Below are positions 648-52,582 of a stretch of 64,000 nt of DNA, in pieces. The notes below the pieces were generated by a model that saw nothing but the letters and a program-made list of their open reading frames with translations, had not been told where the DNA came from and made no database searches. The translations under genes were made by a program, and so were the position numbers. The stretch is from Acidobacteriota bacterium (lineage in GTDB: Bacteria > Acidobacteriota > Blastocatellia > RBC074): NCBI GenBank assembly GCA_016196035.1, contig JACPYM010000057.1, positions 1 to 64,000 of the forward strand. The letters run 5' to 3'. The first letter of the stretch is position 1. Every line of letters begins with the position of its first letter.

Positions 648-3578
648 ATGCTCAGGCGTTTTGCCGGCGGCCTGCGCCGGCTCGATTGCAAACCATTTCT
701 TTTCATCGCGCTCTTTTTCGCCGCTTTCTTTGCGCCAATCTTATTTACCGGGCGTTACCTGGTCGGCGGCGATTCGTTGATCTATTCGTACCCGCTGCGC
801 ACGGTGGCCTGGGACATGATCCGGCACGGACAGTTGCCGTTGTGGACGCCGTTGATTTTGTCGGGCTATCCCTTGCTCTCGATGGCGCAACTGGGCCTCG
901 GCTATCCGGGCACGTGGAGCTATTTGTTTCTGCCCGGCTATCTGGCCGAAGAGATTTATGTACTGCTGCCGTTTCTGTTTTCGCCGCTCTTTGCCTATGC
1001 CTATTTGCGCGCCGTCGGGTGCAGCCGGATGGCGGGATTGCTGGGCGGCTTGAGTTTTGGTTACGGCGGGATGATGGCGGGCGGCTTGTCGCACAACGGC
1101 ATGTTCACCAATGCGGTGATGTGGCTGCCGCTGTTTTTGCTGGCCATCGAACGTTCGCGCGTCTGGCAGTTCGCGCACGCGCTGGCGCTGGCGGCGCTGG
1201 TTTATGCGTTGGCCATTCTGACCGGTTTGGGCCAGGGCTTTCTTTACTCCGGCATCATCGCGGGCGCGTATGGCTTTTGCCTGAGCTTGACCAAGGAACG
1301 CACAGCAGCACGCTTCTTTTCGCTGGAACGCTGGCGGCCTTTGTTCGTCGCGGGTTTCGGCATTTTGTTCGCGGCGGGGCTGGCGGCCTTTCAGATTTTG
1401 GAGACGATGCGCGCGCAACGCCGCAGCATTCGCAGCGCATTGAATTACGAAACCTTCAGCACAGGGTCATTCACCGCCAGCAGCATCTGGCATTCGTTTC
1501 TCACGCCGCTCTATTACTTCAATTTCGAAACGACGGCATACGTACCGGGCCTCGCAGGCGTTTGCATCGTCGCAGCGTTGTTTGCGGGTTTGCGCGTGTT
1601 GCCGCAACGTTGGCGCTTGCCGTGGCCGGGCTGGTTTTGGCTGGGATTGTCGGTCGCGGGCTTTCTGTTGATGCAAGGCGACGGCACGCCGGTCTATCGC
1701 TGGATTTATCGTTTGCCGCTGGTCAATCTATTCCGCATTCCGTGGCGGCACGCGTTTGAATTCACGTTGGGGCTGTCTATGTTGGCGGCGTTCGGCTGGG
1801 ACGCGGTGCGAAGCTGGTACAGTACCGCGCGCGTGAGCAAGCGGCACTTGGCAGGAATATCCAAGGGTGCAGCGTCCGGCCAACCGCTTGCTGACGCGCG
1901 CGGTTCCGTATCGGCGGATTGGCTCGGCTATCTCGCGCTGGCCGCAGTCACGGCCTTCGCCCTCTGGTCAATGCGCCAAGCCGTGCCCGTGATGACGCCG
2001 GGCAATCATCCGTTCTACTTTCGTGAACAGACGTGGCTGGCGTTCAAATTGAGTTTACTGGCGGGTTGGTGCGCGCTGGTCTGGTGGGCCTGGACAAAGA
2101 TGCGTTGGCGGCACGCGCGCGTCGTTCTGCTGACGGTGATTTTCAGCGCTTGTTTTTGGGAGCAGCAAGTGTTGGTCGCGCATTGGTGTTTCCCCTTCCT
2201 GCCGGATGCGGCGTATTTCGCCACGCCCGCGCCTTCGACCAAGTTCATGCAGCAATACGAGCCGACGCAAAATCGCGTCTTCACTTCGACCTCGACCTAT
2301 TTCAATCTGAAGCTGCCGGTCGCCGAACCGCACAACATTTCGATGGTGCGCGGGCTGCACAATGCGGCGGGCTACGAACCGCTGTTGCCGAAACGCTACG
2401 CCGACGCCTTTGGCAGCGGGATGTTGTTCAATACGCCGACGATCAACGCGCCGCTCGATCCCCAGATTTTGCAGCCCGCCTGGCAGGTGCTGGATTTGCT
2501 CAACGTGCGCTTGGTCGCGGATTTCAGTTCGTTCAACACCGAGTTTTTTGAAAAAGAAGGCGTGCTCTTTCCGGTCAACGACAGCCAGATTCAATTGCAG
2601 CCAGGCCGCGCGCTCACGCTCAGCGGCTCCGACTTCGCCGCCGAAGGCGTTTCTATAGTCACGACGCTGGCCGATGCCGGCGACATCCCGCAGGGCGAAC
2701 CCGTCGCGCAATTGACCGTGCACACGACCGACGGGCGCCAATTCGATTACGAATTGAAAGCCGGCGTGGACACCGCCGAATGGGCGCACGAGCGGCCCGA
2801 TGTCAAAGCGCACATCCGGCACAACCTGCCCAAAGTCTTCGATCAATCAGTCGGCGACGCGGCGAGTTCGTTCCTGGCTTATCATTACTGGACGAATTTC
2901 CGCTTGGCGCAGCCGGGCGTGATTGAGCGCATGGTCTTGCAAAGCAAAACCCAACGCGCGCCGCTGATCGTCTGGCGCACGGGTCTTTACAGCACACAAC
3001 CTCGCCAACTGGTTTCGGTGTTTGCACGCCTGCCGGGGCATTGGCGCAAGGTCTACGATCAAGACCAAACGCAGATTTACGAAAACAGCCGCGCGCTGCC
3101 GCGCCTCTGGTTGACGCCGCAAGCCGCAGCCGTCAGCGCTGAAGAGGCGCTCAAACGCATTCGCGGTGAAAGCGCGCAGCCTTTCAATCCGCGCCAGACC
3201 GCGCTCATTGAAACTGCCGCAGCGGGTTTGCCGAAAGAGTTGCTGCCCGCCGCAAATAACCAATTGGCCGACACGGCCAGCGCGCGTTACGTCAGCTATC
3301 AACCCAATCATGTGGTCATTGAAACCAACGCGGACAGACCCGCCGTGCTGGTCGTCAGTGAAGCGCATTATCCCGGCTGGACGGCGCGGCTGGACGGACA
3401 GCCGACGGCAATTTACGCGACCGATTATTTGCTGCGCGGAATCGTCTTACCGGCAGGCCAGCATCGAGTGGAGATGCGTTACACCGCACCGGCGGCGCTC
3501 AGCGGCCTGGGCATTTCCGTGCTGACGCTTGGACTTTTGCTGGGGCTGGTTTGGCGGGCGCGCCGCAAAACGAATTGA
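648..3578 (+). CDS. YfhO-like multi-pass membrane protein with a large extracytoplasmic domain
   Basis: 976 residues. Many hydrophobic segments fill residues ~15-500, then a large hydrophilic beta-rich domain (~510-940) and one last membrane segment (~946-966) with an RRK tail. This matches the YfhO/GT-C-like membrane proteins proposed to act in glycosylation of cell-surface polymers. The C-terminal domain carries HYPGWTARLDG, typical of the family. Start ATG 648 is preceded by GGAG at 637-640. Residues ~390-421 are encoded by palindromic element A copy 2, inserted in frame between a membrane segment and its loop; this 32-residue stretch is probably not ancestral. The sugar donor and acceptor cannot be told. 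Confidence 0.85.
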   Translation: MLRRFAGGLRRLDCKPFLFIALFFAAFFAPILFTGRYLVGGDSLIYSYPLRTVAWDMIRHGQLPLWTPLILSGYPLLSMAQLGLGYPGTWSYLFLPGYLAEEIYVLLPFLFSPLFAYAYLRAVGCSRMAGLLGGLSFGYGGMMAGGLSHNGMFTNAVMWLPLFLLAIERSRVWQFAHALALAALVYALAILTGLGQGFLYSGIIAGAYGFCLSLTKERTAARFFSLERWRPLFVAGFGILFAAGLAAFQILETMRAQRRSIRSALNYETFSTGSFTASSIWHSFLTPLYYFNFETTAYVPGLAGVCIVAALFAGLRVLPQRWRLPWPGWFWLGLSVAGFLLMQGDGTPVYRWIYRLPLVNLFRIPWRHAFEFTLGLSMLAAFGWDAVRSWYSTARVSKRHLAGISKGAASGQPLADARGSVSADWLGYLALAAVTAFALWSMRQAVPVMTPGNHPFYFREQTWLAFKLSLLAGWCALVWWAWTKMRWRHARVVLLTVIFSACFWEQQVLVAHWCFPFLPDAAYFATPAPSTKFMQQYEPTQNRVFTSTSTYFNLKLPVAEPHNISMVRGLHNAAGYEPLLPKRYADAFGSGMLFNTPTINAPLDPQILQPAWQVLDLLNVRLVADFSSFNTEFFEKEGVLFPVNDSQIQLQPGRALTLSGSDFAAEGVSIVTTLADAGDIPQGEPVAQLTVHTTDGRQFDYELKAGVDTAEWAHERPDVKAHIRHNLPKVFDQSVGDAASSFLAYHYWTNFRLAQPGVIERMVLQSKTQRAPLIVWRTGLYSTQPRQLVSVFARLPGHWRKVYDQDQTQIYENSRALPRLWLTPQAAAVSAEEALKRIRGESAQPFNPRQTALIETAAAGLPKELLPAANNQLADTASARYVSYQPNHVVIETNADRPAVLVVSEAHYPGWTARLDGQPTAIYATDYLLRGIVLPAGQHRVEMRYTAPAALSGLGISVLTLGLLLGLVWRARRKTN
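1816..1911. repeat. Palindromic element type A, copy 2, inside a coding sequence
   Basis: Left arm 1816-1844, right arm about 1884-1911, slightly degenerate relative to copies 1 and 3. It is 96 bp, exactly 32 codons, and has no stop in the YfhO frame, so the host frame stays open. It encodes a peptide containing VSKRH and LADARGSVS. Confidence 0.85.
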
Positions 3579-7519: not shown

Positions 7520-7600
7520 AAGTTTGTTTGTTGATGTCGCGACACGTTTCAGAAACCTTGGTTTAATAGCTATAGCTCATTGTCATCAACCGTCATCAAC

Positions 7601-7708
7601 GTAGCGCAATCTGCCGAGGTTGCGCGGCTGACGCTACTTCGACCTGGGGAGTATACCAACGCCATCGTCGTAGCTCACAAAGCGCGCAACCTCGGCAGGT
7701 TGCGCTAC
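7601..7708. repeat. Long inverted repeat, type C
   Basis: Left arm 7601-7626 (starts GTAGCGCAATCTGCCGAGGT) pairs with right arm 7683-7708 with very few mismatches; the centre is about 56 bp. It lies in the 619-bp divergent gap 7520-8138, which also holds element A copy 3 and presumably the promoters of both flanking genes. I see no coding sequence there. Only one copy is in the window. Confidence 0.75.
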
Positions 7709-7936
7709 GCTACCGGCAGTCGCGTGCTTCTGCTTCAAGCAGTTTTTTGCCCGGCCGCCTGCTACAGATTGGTTTATCACAAGGGGAAGTTTTGCCAGAG
7801 ACGACGCCACCTCGCAGGTCATCGTCTGGCGGGAGCGCCGCAACACCACAGATTGGAACAGCACCAGCTTAACGACACAATCCTGTTTTGCCAATTGGAT
7901 CGGTTTGCAATTGCGTTTACGGGAGCGCGTTGTGCC

Positions 7937-8032
7937 GGGACGGTACCGCGCGCGTGAGCAAGCGGAGCCTGTGCGATTCGGCCAAGGGCGCAAGCTTGAC
8001 GTGCCGCTTGCTCACGCGCGCGGTACCGTCCC
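7937..8032. repeat. Palindromic element type A, copy 3 (96 bp)
   Basis: Perfect 29-bp arms at 7937-7965 and 8004-8032 with the centre CCAAGGGCGCAAGCTTGACG, as in copy 1. Just outside the left arm (about 7900-7925) lies the reverse complement of the segment found just outside the right arm of copy 1, so the mobile or duplicated unit may exceed 96 bp. Confidence 0.9.
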
Positions 8033-15878: not shown

Positions 15879-15921
15879 GCGTTATGGCTTGGCAGCGACA
15901 CCTTACTGGCATTCGATAAGT

Positions 15922-15979
15922 CTAAATACGCAGAGGCCAGCCACAGATCGAGACCTGTTGCTGGCCTCTGCGTATTTAG
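15922..15979. terminator. Strong 20-bp palindrome, probable terminator
   Basis: Perfect 20-bp arms at 15922-15941 and 15960-15979 with an 18-nt loop that itself contains ACAG/CTGT. It lies 43 bp after the preceding stop. The T tract is weak, so it may be another intergenic palindromic element rather than a classic terminator. Confidence 0.6.
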
Positions 15980-16161
15980 AGAACAGCACCATTACCTTGG
16001 CGGACTTGCTTCCTGCCAATTGCGGTACTGACCTGGCATCCCACAAACATCATTTGCTCACTTTGCCAGTGGCTGGCTAGAATGGCGCTGCTTTCACCAA
16101 CACATCCGTAACTCAGGATTTGCGTGCGCAGCAACGATTGCAAACGAAACTAAAACATCCC

Positions 16162-17306: not shown

Positions 17307-17404
17307 GATTCCTGATTCCTGATTCCTGACTTCTGATTCCTGATCGTCGGAAAATAACGGCTGAGTTTCACTTATCAGGAATCAGAAGCCAGGAATCAGG
17401 GGTC
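17307..17404. repeat. Inverted/tandem repeat, type D (CTGATTC)
   Basis: The left side is a run of CCTGATT-type 7-mers; the right side carries the reverse complement (ATCAGGAATCAGAAGCCAGG). Together they form an imperfect palindrome of about 95 bp in the 245-bp gap before the carboxylase gene, whose leader follows. Confidence 0.65.
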
Positions 17405-17492
17405 GGGTAGAGAGGTTGTAACCACTGCTTCTTTCAAAACTACCCAAACCCTCTTTTGCGCCTTTTTACAGCAAAGACAACCAGGTTACCGA

Positions 17493-27944: not shown

Positions 27945-27958
27945 AATTGACGGCCCAA

Positions 27959-28082
27959 CCTGGGTACGCACCGCTTCCAGCGTGCGGCCTTGGCGCAAGA
28001 CCAACTGCTGCTGAAAGGAAATCCCTACGGCCTCATTCCGTCCGTTGCCAGAACTGCACGCTGGAAGCGGTGCGTACCCAGG
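27959..28082. repeat. Palindromic element type B, copy 1 (124 bp)
   Basis: Arms begin CCTGGGTACGCACCGCTTCC (27959) and end in the complement (28082), about 30 bp each. The centre is the reverse complement of the centre of copy 2 (29062-29185), so the two copies are oppositely oriented. It ends one base before the stop codon of the dehydratase gene. Confidence 0.9.
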
Positions 28083-28083
28083 T

Positions 28084-29034
28084 TCACCACAACTCCCGCA
28101 AACGTTCCGCCGCGATATTGCGCCCGCACAACACCGCCACCACGTGCTGACCGCGAAACCGCTCCGCCGACTTTAACAGCGCCGCAACGGCCACGCCCGC
28201 CGCGCCCTCGATGACCCAGCGTTCCTTCTCCAGCACCAGCCGCATCGCATGTTTAATTTCGTCTTCGCTCACCAAAACATGTTCATCCAGCAAACGCTGG
28301 CAAGGCTCGAAGGTCAGCGCATCAGGTTCGACGCCACCCGCCGTGCTGTCTGAAAGCGTCGGCAACTCCGGTACATCAAAGATGCGCCCGGCTTTCAAAC
28401 ATTCGTACAACACCGGCGAATTTTCCGGCCAGCAGCCGACGATCTTGACCTTTGGTCTGACCTCTTTCAGATACGTCGCAATCCCCGCGATCAAGCCGCC
28501 GCCGCCCACGGCCACGAAAACAGCGTCCAGCGTTTCAAGCTGTTCGGCGAGTTCAACGCCAATTGTTCCCTGCCCCGCGATGACCTCGGCGTCGTTGTAA
28601 GGCGAGATAAAAACTTGGCCGCGCTGCCCCGCGACGGTGCGCGCCTGCATTTCTGCTTTCAATGAATCATCGCCAAAGAAGACCGGCTCCCCGCCCAGTG
28701 CGCGAATCAGCGCCACACGCAGTTCCGGCACGCCGTTGCGCATGAACACCCGCACCGGCACACCCAATTGCCGTGCCGCGTAACAAACCGCGATGCCGTG
28801 ATTGCCATTGGACGCCGTGATAACGCCGCGCGCGCGTTCTTCCGCCGACAGTGAAAGTAGTTTGTTCGCTGCGCCGCGCAGCTTGAAGGAACCGGTGTGT
28901 TGCAGGTGTTCGAGCTTGAGCCAGACGTGGCAACCGGTCAGTTCGCTCAACGCCCGCGAATAATCAGTCGGCGTCGTGCGGATGACAGGTTGAATGCGGG
29001 CGGCGGCGGTAAGGGTAGCTTGGGCAGTAATCAT
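28084..29034 (-). CDS. Threonine/serine dehydratase-like PLP enzyme
   Basis: 316-317 residues from ATG 29034; the longer frame to 29154 runs through element B copy 2 and is rejected. Fold-type II PLP enzyme: Lys51 in HTGSFKLRGAANK, SNGNHGIAV substrate loop, GGGGLIAG phosphate-binding loop and the C-terminal VLCGRNI, where many homologues have SGGN. The length fits catabolic threonine dehydratase (no ACT regulatory domain) or serine racemase. It should deaminate L-threonine or L-serine to a 2-oxo acid and ammonia in the cytoplasm. The gene is bracketed by two element B copies in opposite orientation. Confidence 0.88.
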   Translation of the reverse strand: MITAQATLTAAARIQPVIRTTPTDYSRALSELTGCHVWLKLEHLQHTGSFKLRGAANKLLSLSAEERARGVITASNGNHGIAVCYAARQLGVPVRVFMRNGVPELRVALIRALGGEPVFFGDDSLKAEMQARTVAGQRGQVFISPYNDAEVIAGQGTIGVELAEQLETLDAVFVAVGGGGLIAGIATYLKEVRPKVKIVGCWPENSPVLYECLKAGRIFDVPELPTLSDSTAGGVEPDALTFEPCQRLLDEHVLVSEDEIKHAMRLVLEKERWVIEGAAGVAVAALLKSAERFRGQHVVAVLCGRNIAAERLRELW

Positions 29035-29061
29035 CGGTTGTTTTTTTTGGCGTTGTCTAAA

Positions 29062-29185
29062 CCTGGGTACGCACCGCTTCCAGCGTGCAGGCTTGGCGAC
29101 AGACGGAATGAAGCCGGAGGGATTTCCTTTCAGCAGCAGTTGGTCTCGCGCCAAGCCTGCACGCTGGAAGCGGTGCGTACACAGG
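29062..29185. repeat. Palindromic element type B, copy 2 (124 bp)
   Basis: Same arms as copy 1; the symmetry extends a few bases further on both sides (GTCTAAA ... TTTAGAC). It fills the gap between the dehydratase start (29034) and the stop of the oxidoreductase gene (29187), ending one base before that stop codon. Confidence 0.9.
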
Positions 29186-29186
29186 T

Positions 29187-30524
29187 TTAGACCGGCAATT
29201 GCCAGGGTGCGCGGTATGCGCGCGCGACCAAGCGTTGTGCTTCGGCATCATTCACGATCTGCTTGCCATCCCAAGCGACCGTGCGACCCGTGCGATAAGC
29301 GATATTCGCCAGATGCGAGGGCAGGATCGAATTGAAACCAATCTCAATGTCCGCCGCCGGGCGCTGGCGCGTGCGCATGCAATCCAGAAAGTTGCGCGCG
29401 TGTTCCAAGCCGGGGTCTTCGTTGCGCGGCGTTGCGCGCGGCTCGCCGGTCATACGATAGAAATCCTTGCGGTCTTTGCCGCGCTCCGATTCGGGGAAGA
29501 CTTCCCAACCGCCGCGATCAATCACCAGTACGCCATTGTTGCCGTGAAAGGCCACGCCGTGTTCGCGCGCTTCGGGGCCGCGTCCGACAAAGACGGCGTG
29601 TTCCCACACCATCGTGTAGCCGGGATAGGTCCACAATGCTTGCAAGGTATCGGGAATCTCTTGCGCGTCCTCTGGGTACCCAAACTTGCCGCCCGCCGCC
29701 ATTGCGTTTTGCGGCGCACCGCTTTGCATGCCCCACGCGGCAATATCCATCTGATGCGCGCCCCAATCGGTCGTCAGCCCGCCCGCGTAATCCCAAAACC
29801 AGCGGAAGTTGAAATGAAAGCGATTGCGATTGAACGCGCGTTTCGGCGCGGGCCCCAACCACATGTCGTAATCCACCGACGCGGGCGCAGCTTCATCCGC
29901 CACGGCCGGCAGGCTCTTCACCCAATTCAAATAGGCCCAGCCGCGCACCATGCGAATCTTGCCGAGTTTGCCGCTTTGCACATAGGCCATCGCTTCCTGA
30001 TGAAAGGCCGAACTGCGCAGCATCGTGCCGACCTGTACGACGCGCTTGTAGCGGCGCGCGGCCTCGACCATCGCGCGGCCTTCGGCAATCGTGGTGGCGA
30101 GCGGCTTCTCGACATAAACATCCTTGCCCGCCTGACAGGCCATGATCGTGGGCAGCGCGTGCCAATGATCGGGCGTGCCGACGATGACGGCGTCTATGTT
30201 TTTATCTTCGATCAAGCGGCGAAAGTCGCGCGTGAGCAAGGCTGGCGTTTGCCCGGCGCGTTCGGTGACGGTCTTTAACTGTTTGGCCGTTTGCGCATCG
30301 TCAACATCGCACAAGGCGACGCATTCGGTCTTGGGCACTTGCAAGGCCTTCATCAAATCGCTGCCGCCCTGACCGCCGCAGCCGATCAGGCCGAGGCGGA
30401 TGCGGTCATTCGCGCCTTGAATCTTGTTGTAAGAAGCGGCTTCCGCCGAGGTCACGGCCAATGCGCCAGTCACGCCTGCCTTGACCGAAGCTTGCAGAAA
30501 TTTGCGGCGGGTCTTGTCGGTCAT
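29187..30524 (-). CDS. Tat-exported Gfo/Idh/MocA-family oxidoreductase
   Basis: 445 residues. An N-terminal twin-arginine signal (TRRKFLQASVKAGVTGALAV) indicates export folded. Rossmann motif LGLIGCGGQGG (~45-55); EKPLATT is the characteristic EKP motif; WDYAGGLTTDWGAHQMDIAAW is typical of the Planctomycetes/Acidobacteria exported branch. It should oxidise or epimerise a sugar or inositol with NAD(P), but how the cofactor is supplied outside the cytoplasm is unclear. Cofactor may be tightly bound, as in glucose-fructose oxidoreductase. Confidence 0.9.
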   Translation of the reverse strand: MTDKTRRKFLQASVKAGVTGALAVTSAEAASYNKIQGANDRIRLGLIGCGGQGGSDLMKALQVPKTECVALCDVDDAQTAKQLKTVTERAGQTPALLTRDFRRLIEDKNIDAVIVGTPDHWHALPTIMACQAGKDVYVEKPLATTIAEGRAMVEAARRYKRVVQVGTMLRSSAFHQEAMAYVQSGKLGKIRMVRGWAYLNWVKSLPAVADEAAPASVDYDMWLGPAPKRAFNRNRFHFNFRWFWDYAGGLTTDWGAHQMDIAAWGMQSGAPQNAMAAGGKFGYPEDAQEIPDTLQALWTYPGYTMVWEHAVFVGRGPEAREHGVAFHGNNGVLVIDRGGWEVFPESERGKDRKDFYRMTGEPRATPRNEDPGLEHARNFLDCMRTRQRPAADIEIGFNSILPSHLANIAYRTGRTVAWDGKQIVNDAEAQRLVARAYRAPWQLPV

Positions 30525-30564: not shown

Positions 30565-30660
30565 GGGACAGTACCGCGCGCGTGAGCAAGCGGTGCGTCA
30601 AATCAAGCGCAATGACGCAACGATGAAAGCACCGCTTGCTGACGCGCGCGGTACCTCACC
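30565..30660. repeat. Palindromic element type A, copy 4 (96 bp)
   Basis: Left arm 30565-30593 identical to copy 1; right arm 30632-30658 degenerate at its end. The centre matches the others better as the reverse complement, so this copy is inverted. It ends at the base before the stop codon (30661-30663) of the serine hydrolase gene. Confidence 0.88.
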
Positions 30661-36881: not shown

Positions 36882-37703
36882 TATTCGAGTTGGCTGTCGT
36901 TCGAGCGCGCCGAAACGCCGTCGCTGGTGTGGCAAGCGCCCGTGTTGGAACAGGTGACGCGCGGTGGCAGTTACGACTTGCGCTGGCTGTTCAAAGACGG
37001 CAACGGCGGCGCGACGGTGGATTTGTACTACGACATGACGGGCAGTGGGTTTGCGGGGACGGCGATTGTGACGGGGTTGAACGCGACGAATGGCGAGATG
37101 ATCTACAACTGGGATGTGGGCGCGTTGCCGGATGGGTTGTATTACGTCTATGCGCGGTTCAGGAACGGTGAGTTTTCAGATGCGGTCTACGGCGGCAGTG
37201 TGCGCAAGCTGACGGACACGGATGGTGACGGAATGCCGGATGCGTGGGAGACAGCGAATGGTCTGAATCCGAACAGCGACGCCGCTGCCTATCTCGAACC
37301 CGATGGGGATGGGCCATCGAATTTGGACGAGTACATCAGCAACACCAATCCACGCGCAGCGGATACGGACGGCGGCGGCGAAAGCGATCGGTCGGAAGTG
37401 ACGAATGGGCGCGACCCGTTGGCGCAGGCGGATGACGTGACAGGCGTGACGGTGCTGGCGGCCAGTCCGGCGCAAGGCGACAGCCGGGGCGGCGACCAGG
37501 TGATGATCGTGGGCAGCGGCTTCCGCACTGGTGCGACGGTGAGTTTCGGCAATGTAGCCGCGACAGGCGTGACGTTTATCAACAGTACGAAGCTGCTGGT
37601 GACGACTCCGGCGGGCAACATCGGCAAGGTCGAATCCGGCGAATGGCGGCAGCGTGAACGGCGCGTCTGTAGGCAGCAACGCGACGTTCACTGCTGTGGC
37701 TAG
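36882..37703 (+). pseudogene. Broken TIGR03437 secreted protein, fragment 2
   Basis: Continues fragment 1 in the same frame after the TAG (YSSWLSFERAETPSLVWQAP). It contains thrombospondin type-3-like calcium repeats (DTDGDGMPDAWE, then DPDGDG-like, then DTDGGGESDRSE) and an IPT/TIG domain (VTVLAASPAQGDSRGGDQVMIVGSGFRTGATVSFG). Near 37620-37640 the frame shifts: the meaningful continuation (NGGSVNGASVGSNATFTAVAS) is in another frame, which then meets an inserted palindromic element at 37700. Non-functional as it stands. Confidence 0.7.
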
Positions 37704-37808
37704 TACTCCATCAAGCTGTAAGTGATGGATGCTGAGAGCGCATCCGGGATGTAGGGCGGGATTAAATCCCGCCCTACATCCCTCATTTTCGGCTTGATGG
37801 AGTACTAG
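37700..37808. mobile_element. Inserted palindromic element type G with apparent CTAG duplication
   Basis: CTAG at 37700-37703 and at 37805-37808 flank inverted ends TACTCCATCAAGC / GCTTGATGGAGTA; a second inner palindrome is GGGATGTAGGGCGGGATT and its complement. Removing one CTAG plus the element (105 bp) restores an open frame reading VASGTPAPTVQWQ. This looks like a MITE-like insertion without a transposase gene. Confidence 0.75.
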
Positions 37809-38722
37809 CGGTACGCCTGCGCCTACGGTGCAATGGCAGGTAAGCACGGACGGTGGTGCGACGTTCAACAGCATCAACGGCGCAACGAACACAACGCTGA
37901 CTGTGTTGCCGCTGACATTGAGCGATAACGGCAAACGGTATCGCGCGGTCTTCACGAATAGTTGTGGGATGGCTGCCAGCAATGCGGCGACGCTCACACC
38001 TGCCAATCCGGTAGTGAACGTTTCGGCGGCCAGCTACAGCGGCGCGCAGCTTGCGCCGGAAGCCCTCGTTACGGCGTTTGGCGAATGAGTTGGCAACGAG
38101 AACAGTGATAGCTTCGACGCTGCCGACTGCATTAAATGGCACAACGGTAAAGATCAGAGATAGCGCCGGGGTGGAATGGCTGGCCGCGCTCTTCTTTGTA
38201 TCGCCGACGCAGATCAACTATCAAATCCCGCCAGGAACAGCGGCGGGTGTGGCGACAGTCACGGTCACGAGCAGCAGCGGCGCTCTCTCGGTCGGCACAA
38301 TACAAATTGCCACGGTTGCGCCGGGTTTGTTTTCTGCCAATGCGAGCGGGCAAGGGCTGGCTGCTGCGGTTGCCTTGCGCGTGAAGAGCAATGGCGCACA
38401 AACCTATGAACCAATCGCGCGCTTCGATACGACGATCAATCGGATGGTCGCTACGCCGATTGACCTCGGCCCGGCGGGCGAGCAGGTCTTTTTGATCTTG
38501 TACGGCACGGGCCTCAAGTTCCGCAGTTCGTTGGCTGCCGTGACGGCGAAAATCGGCGGTGCGGATGCATCCGTCTCATTCGCCCAAGCGCAAGGGAGCC
38601 TGACCGGCTTGGATCAAGTCAACGCGCTGATTCCGCGCAGCCTGCTTGGGCGTGGTGAGGTGGATGTTGTGTTGACTGTAGATGGGAAGGCGGCGAATAC
38701 GGTGTGGGTAAGCATCAAGTAA
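37809..38722 (+). pseudogene. Broken TIGR03437 secreted protein, fragment 3
   Basis: Begins after the inserted element with an Ig-like segment (VQWQVSTDGGATFNSINGAT, YRAVFTNSCG), then TIGR03437 ([21 protein letters not shown]). A one-base insertion (extra T near 38087) breaks the frame at GE; the second frame picks up [19 protein letters not shown] and runs through [15 protein letters not shown] to [19 protein letters not shown] and the TAA at 38720-38722. The tail is well preserved and close to the TIGR03437 tails at 4.2 and 9.8 kb. Confidence 0.75.
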
Positions 38723-41140: not shown

Positions 41141-41175
41141 ATGAAGCTCGTGCTTGATTCAGAAGGTGTGCCTGA

Positions 41176-41298
41176 CCTGGGTACGCACCGCTTCCAGCGT
41201 GCAGGCTTGGCGTAAGACCAAATTATGCCGGAGGGTTCTCTTTCAGCATCCATCGGTCTTATGCCAAGTCTGCACGCTGGAAGCGGTGCGTACCCAGG
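41176..41298. repeat. Palindromic element type B, copy 3 (123 bp)
   Basis: Same arms (CCTGGGTACGCACCGCTTCC) and same centre orientation as copy 2. It lies between the ends of the convergent glycanase and isomerase-like genes, 20 bp from the latter's stop codon. Confidence 0.9.
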
Positions 41299-48216: not shown

Positions 48217-51200
48217 ATGCCATCTTTATCACACCCTCTGCGCTCTTTGCGGCTCGCGCTCGCGCTGGCTGTCGTTTGTGGTCTGAGTTTCATGGGCTAT
48301 CGCGTGCGCGCAAGCGAGACCAACGGGAGTTGGCTGCTCCGGCTCAAAAACGCGCCTGCGGCAGTTTGGGCGGCGGTGTTTCAGGCCAACCCTGAAACCC
48401 TGAGCCAAAGCGGGTTGGCGACGGACGGCAACCGCGCGCGGCTTGCGGCGCAGCGTTTTACCGCGTTGCCCTCCGCGTTGCCCACTGCGTTGCCCTCCAC
48501 CTTACGAAGCTGGGAGGCGCTCGACGACCTGAAGCAGCCGGGACTGTCTGATTCGCTCCCGCCCGCAGCCTTCGCGCCGCTCTTACCCGCCATGACCGGC
48601 TGCGCGACCTCCAGCTTCGGCGCGGCCACCAATTTCGGCGTCGGTGTTGGCCCTATCTCAGTCGCCATCGGCGACCTCAATGGTGATGGCAAGCCTGACC
48701 TAGCCACAGCAAATGATATCTCCAACAATGTCTCGGTGCTGCTGGGCACGGGCACGGGCAGCTTTGGCGCAACCACCAATTTCAGCGTCGGGACAGGCCC
48801 TGCCTCTGTCGCCATCGGCGATCTCAATGGTGATGGAAAGCCCGACCTAGTCGTAGCGAATCGCTACGACAACAATGTCTCGGTGTTGCTGGGCACGGGT
48901 ACGGGCAGCTTCGGCGCGGCCAACAACTTCGGCGTCGGGACTACGCCTGCCTCTGTCGCCATCGGCGACCTCAATGGCGATGGCAAGCGTGACTTGGCCG
49001 TGGCGAATGCCAACTCCAACACTGTCTCGGTGCTGTTAGGCACTGGCACGGGCAGCTTCGGCTCCGCCAACAACTTCGATGTCTGGTATGGCCCTGTCTC
49101 CGTCGCCATCGGCGACCTCAATGGTGATGGCAAGCTTGACTTGGTTACGGCGAATTTCCGTTCCAACGATGTCTCGATGCTTCTGGGCACTGGTACGGGC
49201 AGCTTCGGCGCAGCCATCAACTTCGGCGTCGGGAGTTTCCCTTTTTCCGTCGCCATCGGCGATCTTAATGGCGATGGCAAGCCTGACTTGACCGTGGTGA
49301 ATTCCAACTCCAACAATGTCTCGGTGTTGCTGGGCACGGGCACGGGCAGCTTCGGCGCGGCCTCCAACTTCGGCGTTGGAATTAACCCTGAATCCGTGGC
49401 GATCGGCGATCTCAATGGCGATGGCAAGTCTGACTTGGCGGTGGCTAACGGCTACAACAATGGCTCAGTGCTGCTGGGCACGGGGACTGGCAGCTTCGGT
49501 GCTCCCTCCAACTTCGCTGTCGGGAGTTACACTCGCTCCATCGCCATTGGCGATCTCAACAGCGATGGTAAACCTGACCTAGCTACAGCGAATAACGGCT
49601 CTAACAATGTCTCAGTGCTGCTGAATACCTGCAATGCCAGCCCGTGCGGTGGGACGAGCTTCGGCGCAGCCACCAACTTCGACGCCGGAAGTAGTTCTTT
49701 CTCTGTCGCCATCAGCGATCTCAATGGCGATGGCAAGCCCGACCTAGCCGTGGCGAATCGAGACTCTAACAATGTCTCCGTGCTGCTGGGCACGGGCGCA
49801 GGCAGCTTCGGCGCGGCCATCAACTTCGGCGTCGGGACTCAACCCCACTCCGTTGCCATCAGCGATCTCAATGGCGATGGTAAGCTCGACCTCGCTGTGG
49901 CGAACGAAATGTCCGCTAATGTCTCGGTGCTACTGGGCACAGGCACGGGCAGCTTCGGCGCGGCCACCAACTTCATTGTCGGGGGTCAACCTTGGTCAGT
50001 AGCCATTGGCGATCTCAATGGCGATGGCAAGCCCGACCTAACCGTGGCAAATCGAGACTCCAATAATCTCTCGGTGCTGCTGGGCACGGGCGCAGGCAGC
50101 TTCGGTGCGGCCACCAACTTCGGCGTCGGGACTACTCCGCGCTCCATCGCCATTGGCGATCTCAATGGCGATGGCAAGCCCGACTTGGCTGTGGCGAATA
50201 CAGGCGACAACAATGTTTCGGTGCTGCTGGGCACGGGCACGGGCAGCTTCGGCGCGGCCATGAACTTTAGCGTCGGGAGTAGCCCTATCTCCATCGCCAT
50301 TGGCGATCTCAATGGCGATGGCAAGCCCGACTTGGCTGTGGTGAAGTATCTCTTCTCCAGCAATGTCTCGGTGCTGCTGGGCACAGGCACGGGCAGCTTC
50401 GGCGCGGCCACGAGCTTCGGCGTTGGGAGTAGCCCTTTCTCCGTCGCCATCGGCGATCTCAATGGTGATGGCAAGCCGGATCTGGCCGTGGCGAATTCTA
50501 GTTCCGACAATGTATCGGTGCTGCTGGGAGATGGCACGGGCAGCTTCGCCGCGACCACCAACTTCGACGTCGGGTATATCCCTGTTGCCGTCGCCATCGG
50601 CGATCTCAATGGCGATGGCAAGCCTGACTTGGCCGTGGCGAGTTTCCGCTTCGGCAGTGTCTCGGTGCTGCTCAATAATTGCACTCCGCCACCAAACACA
50701 GCTCCCACCCTCACGCCTGTCGCCGCCACGCGCCAGCCGGGCAGCCCGGCCAGCAACTCCCAAATCGCCAGCACCGCCGACGCCGAAGACGCTGCCAATA
50801 CGCTGCAAATCCAGCTCAGCAGCGACGGGGTGACGTTTGGCACAACGGCCACGTCGGGCGGCGTCACCGTCACGTTGACCGACAGCAACGCGGGTGCGGC
50901 GGGGACGAATCCCGATGCGCTGGGCAAAGTTTTCGCCGACATCGTGGCCTCGCGCATGGCGAGCGGCGGCAGCTTTACGCTCAAAGTCACCGACAGCGGC
51001 TCGTTGACGGCGACCGCCACGCTGACGGTCTACACGATGAATCTTGCGCTGGCCGACCCGGCGGTTTGTCTGGGGCCGGGCGGCTTGGTGGGTGTGACGT
51101 TCAGCGTGACCAATAGCGCCAACACCGCGCAACCGGTGACGGCGACGGCCAGCTTGCCCGCTGGGTTGCTGGCGCTCGCTGGCACCTGCACGGCCAATTT

Positions 51201-52317
51201 CGGCACATGCACAATCAACAATCCGGCCACGGTGTTATACAGCGGCACGCTGGCGGCGGGCCAGACGGCGCTTGTTAGCTATCAAACTCAGGCGGCTGAC
51301 AGCGCCGCCCCGAACACGCAATTGTGCGTCAACACCACTGCCAGCATTGCCGGCGCGGCTCCGGTGAGCGTGCAGGCCTGCACCACGGTGCGTTGCCCGC
51401 CGGCGGGCCCCGGCGCGAACTATCCGTCCGCTGCCGCTATCAGCAGTCAAAAGGCCGGGTCGGTGTTGATCTTCAACCTTTACACCTCAGACGCCGCCGC
51501 CGGCAATCAGCAAAACACACGCATCGCGCTGACCAACCTTGACGCGTTGCGCACGGCCTTTGTGCATCTGTTCTTTGTGGACGGCACGTCCTGTTCGGTT
51601 GCGGATTCGTTCGTTTGCCTGACTCCGAATCAGACCTCGGCATTTCTCGCGTCGGACATTGATCCGGGCACGACTGGCTATTTGATCGCGGTGGCGACGG
51701 ATCGCAGCGGTTGCCCGCTCAATTTCAACTTTCTGCTGGGGGACGCCTTCGTGAAACTTAGCAGCGGACACGCGGCGAACCTGCCTGCGGAAAGCGTTGC
51801 GGCGCTGCCGGGCGGCTTTGTGCCGTGCGACCCGCTGGCCAGCACGGCGGTGCTGAATTTCGATGACCGGATGTACAACGCCTTGCCGCGCACCCTGGCG
51901 CTGTCGAACATCGCCAGCCGCGCCGATGGCAACAACACGTTGTTAATCGTCAATCGCATCGGCGGCAGTTTGGCGACGAGCGCGAGCACGTTGGCAAATT
52001 TGTTCGGCGTGCTTTATGACGACGGCGAGACACCGTTCAGCTTCAACTTCTCGCCCGGCACGTGCCAGCTCCGCAGCATCATCAGCAGCAACTTCCCGCG
52101 CACGGCCCCGCGTTTCGAGCAGGTGATCCCGGCGGGCCGCAGCGGCTGGCTGAAGTTTGCGCTGTTTACGGACGGCGCGATTTCAGGCGCGGCCATCAAT
52201 GCCAACACCAATGCGGGCATACAGGCCAATGCCTTCAATCAAGGCCACAACCTGCACAAACTGACGTTGACGACGACGGCGGTGTTGACGGTGCCGGTGT
52301 TCCCGCCGAGTTGTTAA
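48217..52317 (+). CDS. Giant secreted FG-GAP/VCBS-repeat protein
   Basis: About 1366 residues from ATG 48217; the open frame begins at 48022 but those codons cover the repeats. Signal peptide (LRLALALAVVCGLSFMG). Residues ~140-825 hold 14 FG-GAP repeats of about 48-49 residues, each with SVAIGDLNGDGKPDLAVAN and NVSVLLGTGTGSFGAA, giving calcium-binding propeller blades. Then a bacterial Ig-like segment (~830-945), a DUF11-like segment (~950-1070) and a C-terminal domain (~1080-1366) that recurs in Acidobacteria secreted proteins (NQQNTRIALTNLDA, FFVDGTSC). Likely an adhesin or surface protein. Confidence 0.88.
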   Translation: MPSLSHPLRSLRLALALAVVCGLSFMGYRVRASETNGSWLLRLKNAPAAVWAAVFQANPETLSQSGLATDGNRARLAAQRFTALPSALPTALPSTLRSWEALDDLKQPGLSDSLPPAAFAPLLPAMTGCATSSFGAATNFGVGVGPISVAIGDLNGDGKPDLATANDISNNVSVLLGTGTGSFGATTNFSVGTGPASVAIGDLNGDGKPDLVVANRYDNNVSVLLGTGTGSFGAANNFGVGTTPASVAIGDLNGDGKRDLAVANANSNTVSVLLGTGTGSFGSANNFDVWYGPVSVAIGDLNGDGKLDLVTANFRSNDVSMLLGTGTGSFGAAINFGVGSFPFSVAIGDLNGDGKPDLTVVNSNSNNVSVLLGTGTGSFGAASNFGVGINPESVAIGDLNGDGKSDLAVANGYNNGSVLLGTGTGSFGAPSNFAVGSYTRSIAIGDLNSDGKPDLATANNGSNNVSVLLNTCNASPCGGTSFGAATNFDAGSSSFSVAISDLNGDGKPDLAVANRDSNNVSVLLGTGAGSFGAAINFGVGTQPHSVAISDLNGDGKLDLAVANEMSANVSVLLGTGTGSFGAATNFIVGGQPWSVAIGDLNGDGKPDLTVANRDSNNLSVLLGTGAGSFGAATNFGVGTTPRSIAIGDLNGDGKPDLAVANTGDNNVSVLLGTGTGSFGAAMNFSVGSSPISIAIGDLNGDGKPDLAVVKYLFSSNVSVLLGTGTGSFGAATSFGVGSSPFSVAIGDLNGDGKPDLAVANSSSDNVSVLLGDGTGSFAATTNFDVGYIPVAVAIGDLNGDGKPDLAVASFRFGSVSVLLNNCTPPPNTAPTLTPVAATRQPGSPASNSQIASTADAEDAANTLQIQLSSDGVTFGTTATSGGVTVTLTDSNAGAAGTNPDALGKVFADIVASRMASGGSFTLKVTDSGSLTATATLTVYTMNLALADPAVCLGPGGLVGVTFSVTNSANTAQPVTATASLPAGLLALAGTCTANFGTCTINNPATVLYSGTLAAGQTALVSYQTQAADSAAPNTQLCVNTTASIAGAAPVSVQACTTVRCPPAGPGANYPSAAAISSQKAGSVLIFNLYTSDAAAGNQQNTRIALTNLDALRTAFVHLFFVDGTSCSVADSFVCLTPNQTSAFLASDIDPGTTGYLIAVATDRSGCPLNFNFLLGDAFVKLSSGHAANLPAESVAALPGGFVPCDPLASTAVLNFDDRMYNALPRTLALSNIASRADGNNTLLIVNRIGGSLATSASTLANLFGVLYDDGETPFSFNFSPGTCQLRSIISSNFPRTAPRFEQVIPAGRSGWLKFALFTDGAISGAAINANTNAGIQANAFNQGHNLHKLTLTTTAVLTVPVFPPSC
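48640..50690. repeat. 14 tandem ~146-bp coding repeats (FG-GAP blades)
   Basis: Each unit repeats nearly the same bases around GATCTCAATGGCGATGGCAA. Unit 6 is one codon short (NNGSVLL), unit 12 is longer (KYLFSSNVSVLL), and units 7-8 are separated by an extra CNASPCGGTSF segment. High nucleotide identity between units should make this prone to recombination and assembly collapse. Confidence 0.9.
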
Positions 52318-52347
52318 GTCAGGGGCTATTCGTGCTCAGCAGAAATT

Positions 52348-52466
52348 GCCACAGAGGCACAGAGACGCAGAGCAATGCGGAACGAACCATGGAGGTTTTT
52401 AGCTGAACCATGTGGTTTCCCCTGCCGGGGCTTCGCCACTTCTCTGTGTCTCTGTGCCTCTGTGGC
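52348..52466. repeat. Long inverted repeat, type J (CACAGAG)
   Basis: Left arm about 52348-52370 (GCCACAGAGGCACAGAGAC) and right arm 52442-52466, its near complement, with a ~70-bp centre. It occupies most of the 265-bp gap 52318-52582. Confidence 0.8.
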
Positions 52467-52582
52467 AGAGAATGAATAGGCCTTGGCCAGCAGTTTGCCA
52501 AAATCACCACCCGCCCGTATGATGCGCGCACTCCATTCGACAACGCAGTTCCATTCATAAACCAAGCTTTTCTGGAGGCTTT

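Follow-up and report, generated by a model that had tools for sequence, protein, structure and literature searches.

A short, probably mobile palindromic repeat adds about 30 amino acids to a membrane protein, within a loop of variable length. The repeat lies at positions 1816–1912 (97 bp, no strand assigned) of the 64,000-nucleotide stretch of Acidobacteriota DNA analysed here (the window), where it stands in frame in a YfhO-like gene. It is very probably a non-autonomous repeat of the REPIN/TIR type, which was spread by a RAYT-like transposase and is tolerated in the variable YfhO loop. In the proposed mechanism, two inverted arms of about 29 nt, each potentially a small imperfect hairpin, would enclose a variable spacer. 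The family would most likely be spread by its own RAYT-like HUH/Y1 transposase, which would act on hairpins in single-stranded DNA, and copies that hit genes would mostly be lost. The survival of the copy at 1816–1912 may be owed to its landing site, a loop of variable length, and to an open frame and a net length that kept the phase. A REPIN-type repeat, normally extragenic, can be retained as coding sequence.

The host gene (648–3578, + strand) encodes a YfhO-like membrane protein of 976 amino acids, and its reading frame passes through the element without a stop. The element consists of a left arm (1816–1844, + strand, GGTACAGTACCGCGCGCGTGAGCAAGCGG) that reads (Y)STARVSKR, a variable inter-arm spacer (1845–1883, + strand) and a right arm (1884–1912, − strand), which is an inverted copy and gives PLADARGSVS when read on the + strand. 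The claim of an earlier note on this DNA, that a palindrome lies in frame and free of stops within a YfhO-like protein and encodes LADARGSVS, was borne out by the open reading frame and the peptide (...STARVSKR...PLADARGSVS), but the length given there, exactly 96 bp or 32 codons, was one base short. The arm spacing is 57, arm symmetry gives 97 bp, and codons 390–422 are touched. Of the 29 arm positions, 4 are mismatched between the two arms. The peptide-coding pattern has an expected count of 0.00 in shuffled versions of the window. When folding energies were calculated with RNA parameters, this copy (−58.6 kcal/mol) and another copy in the window, copy 1 (−74.2 kcal/mol), formed long hairpins, and a single arm (−9.3 kcal/mol) formed a small imperfect hairpin with a 7-bp stem containing a mismatch.

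That the 648–3578 frame is an assembly or gene-call artefact, open by chance and without a real gene behind it, is scarcely credible. Hexamer coding scores are 0.38 upstream (389 codons) and 0.40 downstream (554 codons) of the element, and homologues with 42–49% identity from the same family and class align over nearly the full length of the protein. The Pfam family PF09586 (YfhO) was matched with 43.7 bits against a gathering cut-off of 28.5, over residues 848–957 only. The host gene is presumably translated across the element. The insert plausibly lies between membrane segments; a Kyte-Doolittle scan (>1.6) flagged neither of the segments next to it, and AlphaFold with 4 sequences gave a poor model (mean pLDDT 41.5, pTM 0.29). 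The earlier note had also considered that the peptide might be a real conserved domain. When the peptide was searched, no Pfam family matched and no PDB chain was found at E≤1, and its reading as a known domain was rejected. A literature text search for ADARGSV found nothing, which is a weak negative as peptides are seldom printed.

The window holds four two-armed copies of the palindrome, and the other three lie outside called genes: copy 1 (300–395) and copy 3 (7937–8032) with perfect arms, and copy 4 (30565–30660) with 5 arm mismatches, all without assigned strand. When the whole 9.59 Mb genome (G000) was searched with at most 1 mismatch, 336 forward and 336 reverse arm sites (672) were found, and the reversed control pattern gave 0 sites in the same search, so the arm sites are not due to chance. 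The architecture of the copies was analysed in tiles covering 1,631,391 bases (1.63 of 9.59 Mb); several tiles were picked for listed hits, which raises the density but should leave the position relative to genes unaffected. With at most 2 mismatches, the tiles contained 143 arm hits, of which 17 stand alone and the rest form 63 inverted pairs. The arm spacing was 56 (96 bp) in 36 pairs, 55 in 10, 57 in 9 and another value in 8, so that a near-fixed spacing of 55–57 (95–97 bp) holds for 55 of the 63. Arms that are perfect inverses were found in 21 of the 63 copies. The variable core letter was the same in both arms in 54 of the 63 pairs (G/G 36, C/C 18); at the A/G position close to the arm end, the two arms agreed in 50.

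The family has a narrow distribution among near relatives. With at most 1 mismatch, the arm was present in 4 of 58 sampled genomes including its own (G000, G003, G006 and G009), all of the same family. A phylum-wide draw of 297 genomes found it in five, namely G000, G006 and three distant genomes with 1, 3 and 7 sites; a GGTTC variant accounts for 10 of these 11. This variant would give PLADARGS, like the copy in the YfhO gene of the window. Among 116 sampled arm cores, in contrast to these distant genomes, 112 were GGTAC and only 2 GGTTC, and a similar stretch within the RAYT-like protein linked to the arms, HGDARGSVD, was therefore taken as a coincidence and not as kin of the insert peptide.

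The arms are also linked to a transposase gene. G000 contains 14 Y1_Tnp matches, and at one of them (L042, C64, 88282–88818) family arms stand immediately beyond the stop and just before the likely start. The product matched Y1_Tnp with 29.3 bits (Pfam cut-off 23). It stayed below the NCBIfam cut-offs for REP_Tyr_transpos (NF047646; 25.5 versus 80 bits) and for IS200 (26 versus 55 bits), and because the former was missed it is named only RAYT-like. None of the other 13 Y1_Tnp loci carried these arms within the 3.2–3.4 kb searched at each (at most 2 mismatches). The closest relative of the L042 transposase in another genus (L165, 59%) has a different palindrome on both sides, GGTACGGGGAGCGTCAGCGACCTG, with the same layout as the arms of L042 (GGTAC.....GCGT[C/A]AGC......), as joint change of transposase and arms would predict. 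A second relative (50%) is present in G000 itself at C18:9708. G009 and G006 contain arms and gave no match to the L042 transposase (G009 is 83% complete), and these two genomes count against a one-to-one pairing of transposase and arms. When flanking palindromes were scanned (arms of at least 16 nt, gap up to 80), the Y1_Tnp genes of L040 (G000:C70), L041 (C59:128610) and L044 (G000:C97) were each found between palindromes of their own; together with L042, there are therefore seemingly at least four separate transposase-palindrome systems. The flanking palindromes of L041 belong, by eye, to a second palindromic family that is also present in the window, CCTGGGTACGCACCGCTTCCAGCGTGC... (27957–28084, 29060–29187 and 41175–41298).

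To place the insert, the protein was aligned with 16 homologue rows, 14 of them distinct, since L157 and L129 look alike throughout, as do L159 and L155. After the ...FGWD-like motif, the loop contained no recognised repeat in 14 of the 16 rows, or 12 of the 14 distinct ones, so the alignment proposed in the earlier note does find the insertion absent from most homologues. At their degree of identity, none of them offers a close empty site. The note had named an equally long unrelated insertion at this place as evidence against its reading; this was seen in part, since the loop of L153 (G009) is longer and without a recognised repeat. Two stray single arm-like matches (2 mismatches each) lie outside the loop, one at 1415 in L154, where the YfhO-like frame is only just starting or has yet to start, and one at 1803 in L158, in another frame.

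The remaining two homologues carry repeats of their own in this loop. In L128, from another genus (G009), a 75-bp version of the element is read as YRARQQA...QPLADARGT. The left arms are in different frames (YRARQQA against STARVSK in the window), and the right-arm frame giving PLADARG is common to both. Among the 28 pairs from G009, 27 are 70–76 bp long, and the copy in L128 therefore looks native to the G009 lineage. In L134, from the same genus as the window (G001), the loop contains two perfect palindromes of another type, GGGCAGGTTnnnAACCTGCCC, 48 bp apart: GGTGTAGGGCAGGTT ACC AACCTGCCCTACACC and its sister, which together give the peptide GVGQVTNLPYT...AVGQVENLPHS. With at most 1 mismatch, 33 sites of this type were found in G001 and 18 in G000. 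One such site (1 mismatch) was also observed at G006:C63:18377–18397. It falls in the 1019-codon frame that encodes a YfhO-like paralogue and, judged from coordinates only, apparently lies away from the loop.

The shared loop and the shared right-arm frame might suggest that the inserts of the window and of L128 go back to an ancestor shared by both genes. This is very improbable: the left arms are read in different frames, the length of each copy is the one usual in its own genome (95–97 bp in G000, 70–76 bp in G009), the arms are near-identical, yet the proteins are 47% identical, and the G009 homologue L153 has no insert. Descent of both PLADARG inserts from one event was accordingly judged unlikely. 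We read the loop as one permissive site that was filled three times, presumably in independent events.

The three occupied loops, with 97 bp in the window, 75 bp in L128 and the palindrome pair in L134, could also mean that this is a favoured site, where some property of the loop or of its transcript draws palindromes in repeatedly or rewards their entry. We consider this unlikely, since the loop is free of recognised repeats in 12 distinct homologues, it varies in length anyway, so that plain tolerance accounts for the repeats, and the sample was a chosen one, the homologues being examined on account of the window. A broader proposal is that unrelated palindromic repeats land again and again in this loop of the YfhO-like family, in at least three species, because the site attracts single-strand hairpin transposition or because longer, basic loops are of benefit there. 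It keeps a small chance of being right; if true, intragenic REPs would be selected at this position, beyond mere tolerance. The repeats in one YfhO loop of three species form a small natural insertion map and mark the loop as free to vary.

The earlier note proposed a search for the peptide in unrelated families, and in-frame arms do occur in such proteins. Loci of G009, G003 and G006 were scanned, giving 30 pairs (28 from G009) and 28 single arms; all G009 contigs had been chosen for holding hits. In-frame arms were found in three recognisable proteins, the YfhO-like L128 and two unrelated proteins of G009. The asparagine synthase L195 has a single arm, read as TACSRARYGT, between its glutamine amidotransferase and synthase domains. 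The PSCyt1/PSCyt2/PSD1 protein L184 (G009:C390) has three 39-bp units in frame, which make PLAHARGTDSTPK repeats before the cytochrome domain, at the contig end. Tandem single arms with a 39-bp (13-codon) period at contig ends were observed both there and in L180 (G009:C199). Most of the matches listed in a peptide search of four genomes were in short open frames. At least five longer open frames, from 244 codons upwards, were also listed with PLADARG: 515, 337, 333 and 288 codons at C27, C99, C107 and C81 of G000, where 150 of 213 candidates were scored, and 244 codons at G006:C18. In L206, L217 and L248, the element stands in an open frame but lies by eye upstream of the likely start or signal peptide; they were rejected as coding insertions and left uncounted. 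The GGGCAGGTTnnnAACCTGCCC palindrome, sometimes paired, was likewise observed in frame in protein genes, namely in L134 / L256 (G001:C726), in an AAA_16 protein of G003 (L219) and in a PMT_2 membrane protein of G001 (L245).

In the tiled DNA of G000, the YfhO-like gene contains the only copy lying wholly within a gene. Of the 63 two-arm copies, 10 lie across a gene end and 52 touch no gene. This DNA is 82.6% coding, according to gene calls from our own hexamer caller, which is crude and non-standard. The frames across the elements are no more open than those of control DNA. Stop-free frames numbered 180 of 378, compared with 169 ± 8.3 in 200 dinucleotide shuffles, 23 of which reached 180, and amounted to 2.86 of 6 per element, compared with 2.83 of 6 in 625 GC-matched intergenic windows. 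The full set of 2369 intergenic windows gave 2.17 of 6, at a G+C content of 53% versus 67% in the elements. An element that hits a gene therefore has fair but unexceptional odds of an open frame.

These results bear on the proposal of a protein-diversifying repeat comparable to the Rickettsia palindromic elements, one that enters genes frequently and is selected for open frames. The in-frame cases in unrelated proteins (YfhO in two genera, the single arm of L195 and the three units of L184) and the PLADARG open frames listed above speak for it. The share of one copy in 63 within genes and a frame openness equal to that of shuffles and GC-matched controls speak against it, and we regard it as quite improbable. 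The suggestion that the element diversifies proteins without breaking them does not hold as a property of the element, and it was rejected as an adapted stop-free diversifier; with a stop-free rate no higher than in controls, nothing points to such an adaptation. Tolerance of a REPIN/TIR-type repeat, probably without benefit to the protein, is the reading we keep.

Gene 3′ ends are a more frequent point of effect on proteins than in-frame insertion. The nearest gene end was a 3′ end for 42 of the 63 copies, and in eight a gene 3′ end lies within the element, in two of these by just 1 nt. The other six genes draw 21–52 nt from it. Four of them (C11:83719, C7:133637, C5:112095 and C117:55859 of G000) terminate on the arm's own TGA and take their last residues from the arm, so that the commoner contact between repeat and protein (4 of 63 copies) is the gift of a stop codon and a shared ...VPRA tail. 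Two further genes end within the element in other frames, one of them a weak 89-codon call. Two findings deserve further attention, these ...VPRA tails and the reuse of the YfhO loop.

The features of the family were compared with known systems as far as the available parts of the sources describe them. REPINs are inverted REP doublets that form a hairpin, and the gene of the RAYT tyrosine transposase has these REPs on both sides (Bertels and Rainey 2011, PMC3116915). The present element has near-fixed inverted arm pairs, folds as a hairpin, occurs in many mostly extragenic copies and is linked to a RAYT-like gene between the same arms; it differs from REPINs in its arm sequence, its Acidobacteria host and the one copy in frame in a gene. 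In Acidobacteria, TIRtrons or TIRYTs have been described, which are RAYT-like genes between long TIRs, some of which are also repeat families (PMC3733652). The L042 gene resembles them, lying between inverted arms that also form a genomic repeat family. The same account reports that REP dimers inside open reading frames add 20–30 amino acids, that REP ends provide neighbouring genes with stop codons, and that recB of two Xanthomonas species carries different REPs near the same site. The stop provided by the present element is TGA and not TAG as there, and its host gene is YfhO-like. In-frame REPs are thus already described, and the insert at 1816–1912 is a further example, probably tolerated rather than a device for making new proteins. 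Rickettsia palindromic elements are likewise palindromic repeats that stand in frame in genes for unrelated proteins, but nearly half of them are in genes (review PMC10969869), compared with 1 of 63 here. No family with these arms was seen in the available part of the TIRtron account (PMC3733652), and the titles and abstract openings of the papers listed on Acidobacteria REP sequences and on REPINs, RAYTs and coding do not name the arm family.

Further repeats were observed in the window. A tandem array at 48573–50716 consists of units of about 147 bp (49 codons) with 60–81% identity, within a + strand gene call (48247–52318). Inverted repeats lie between called genes at 7600–7709, 15921–15980, 17311–17407 and 52347–52467, and another, at 37699–37809, overlaps a gene end.
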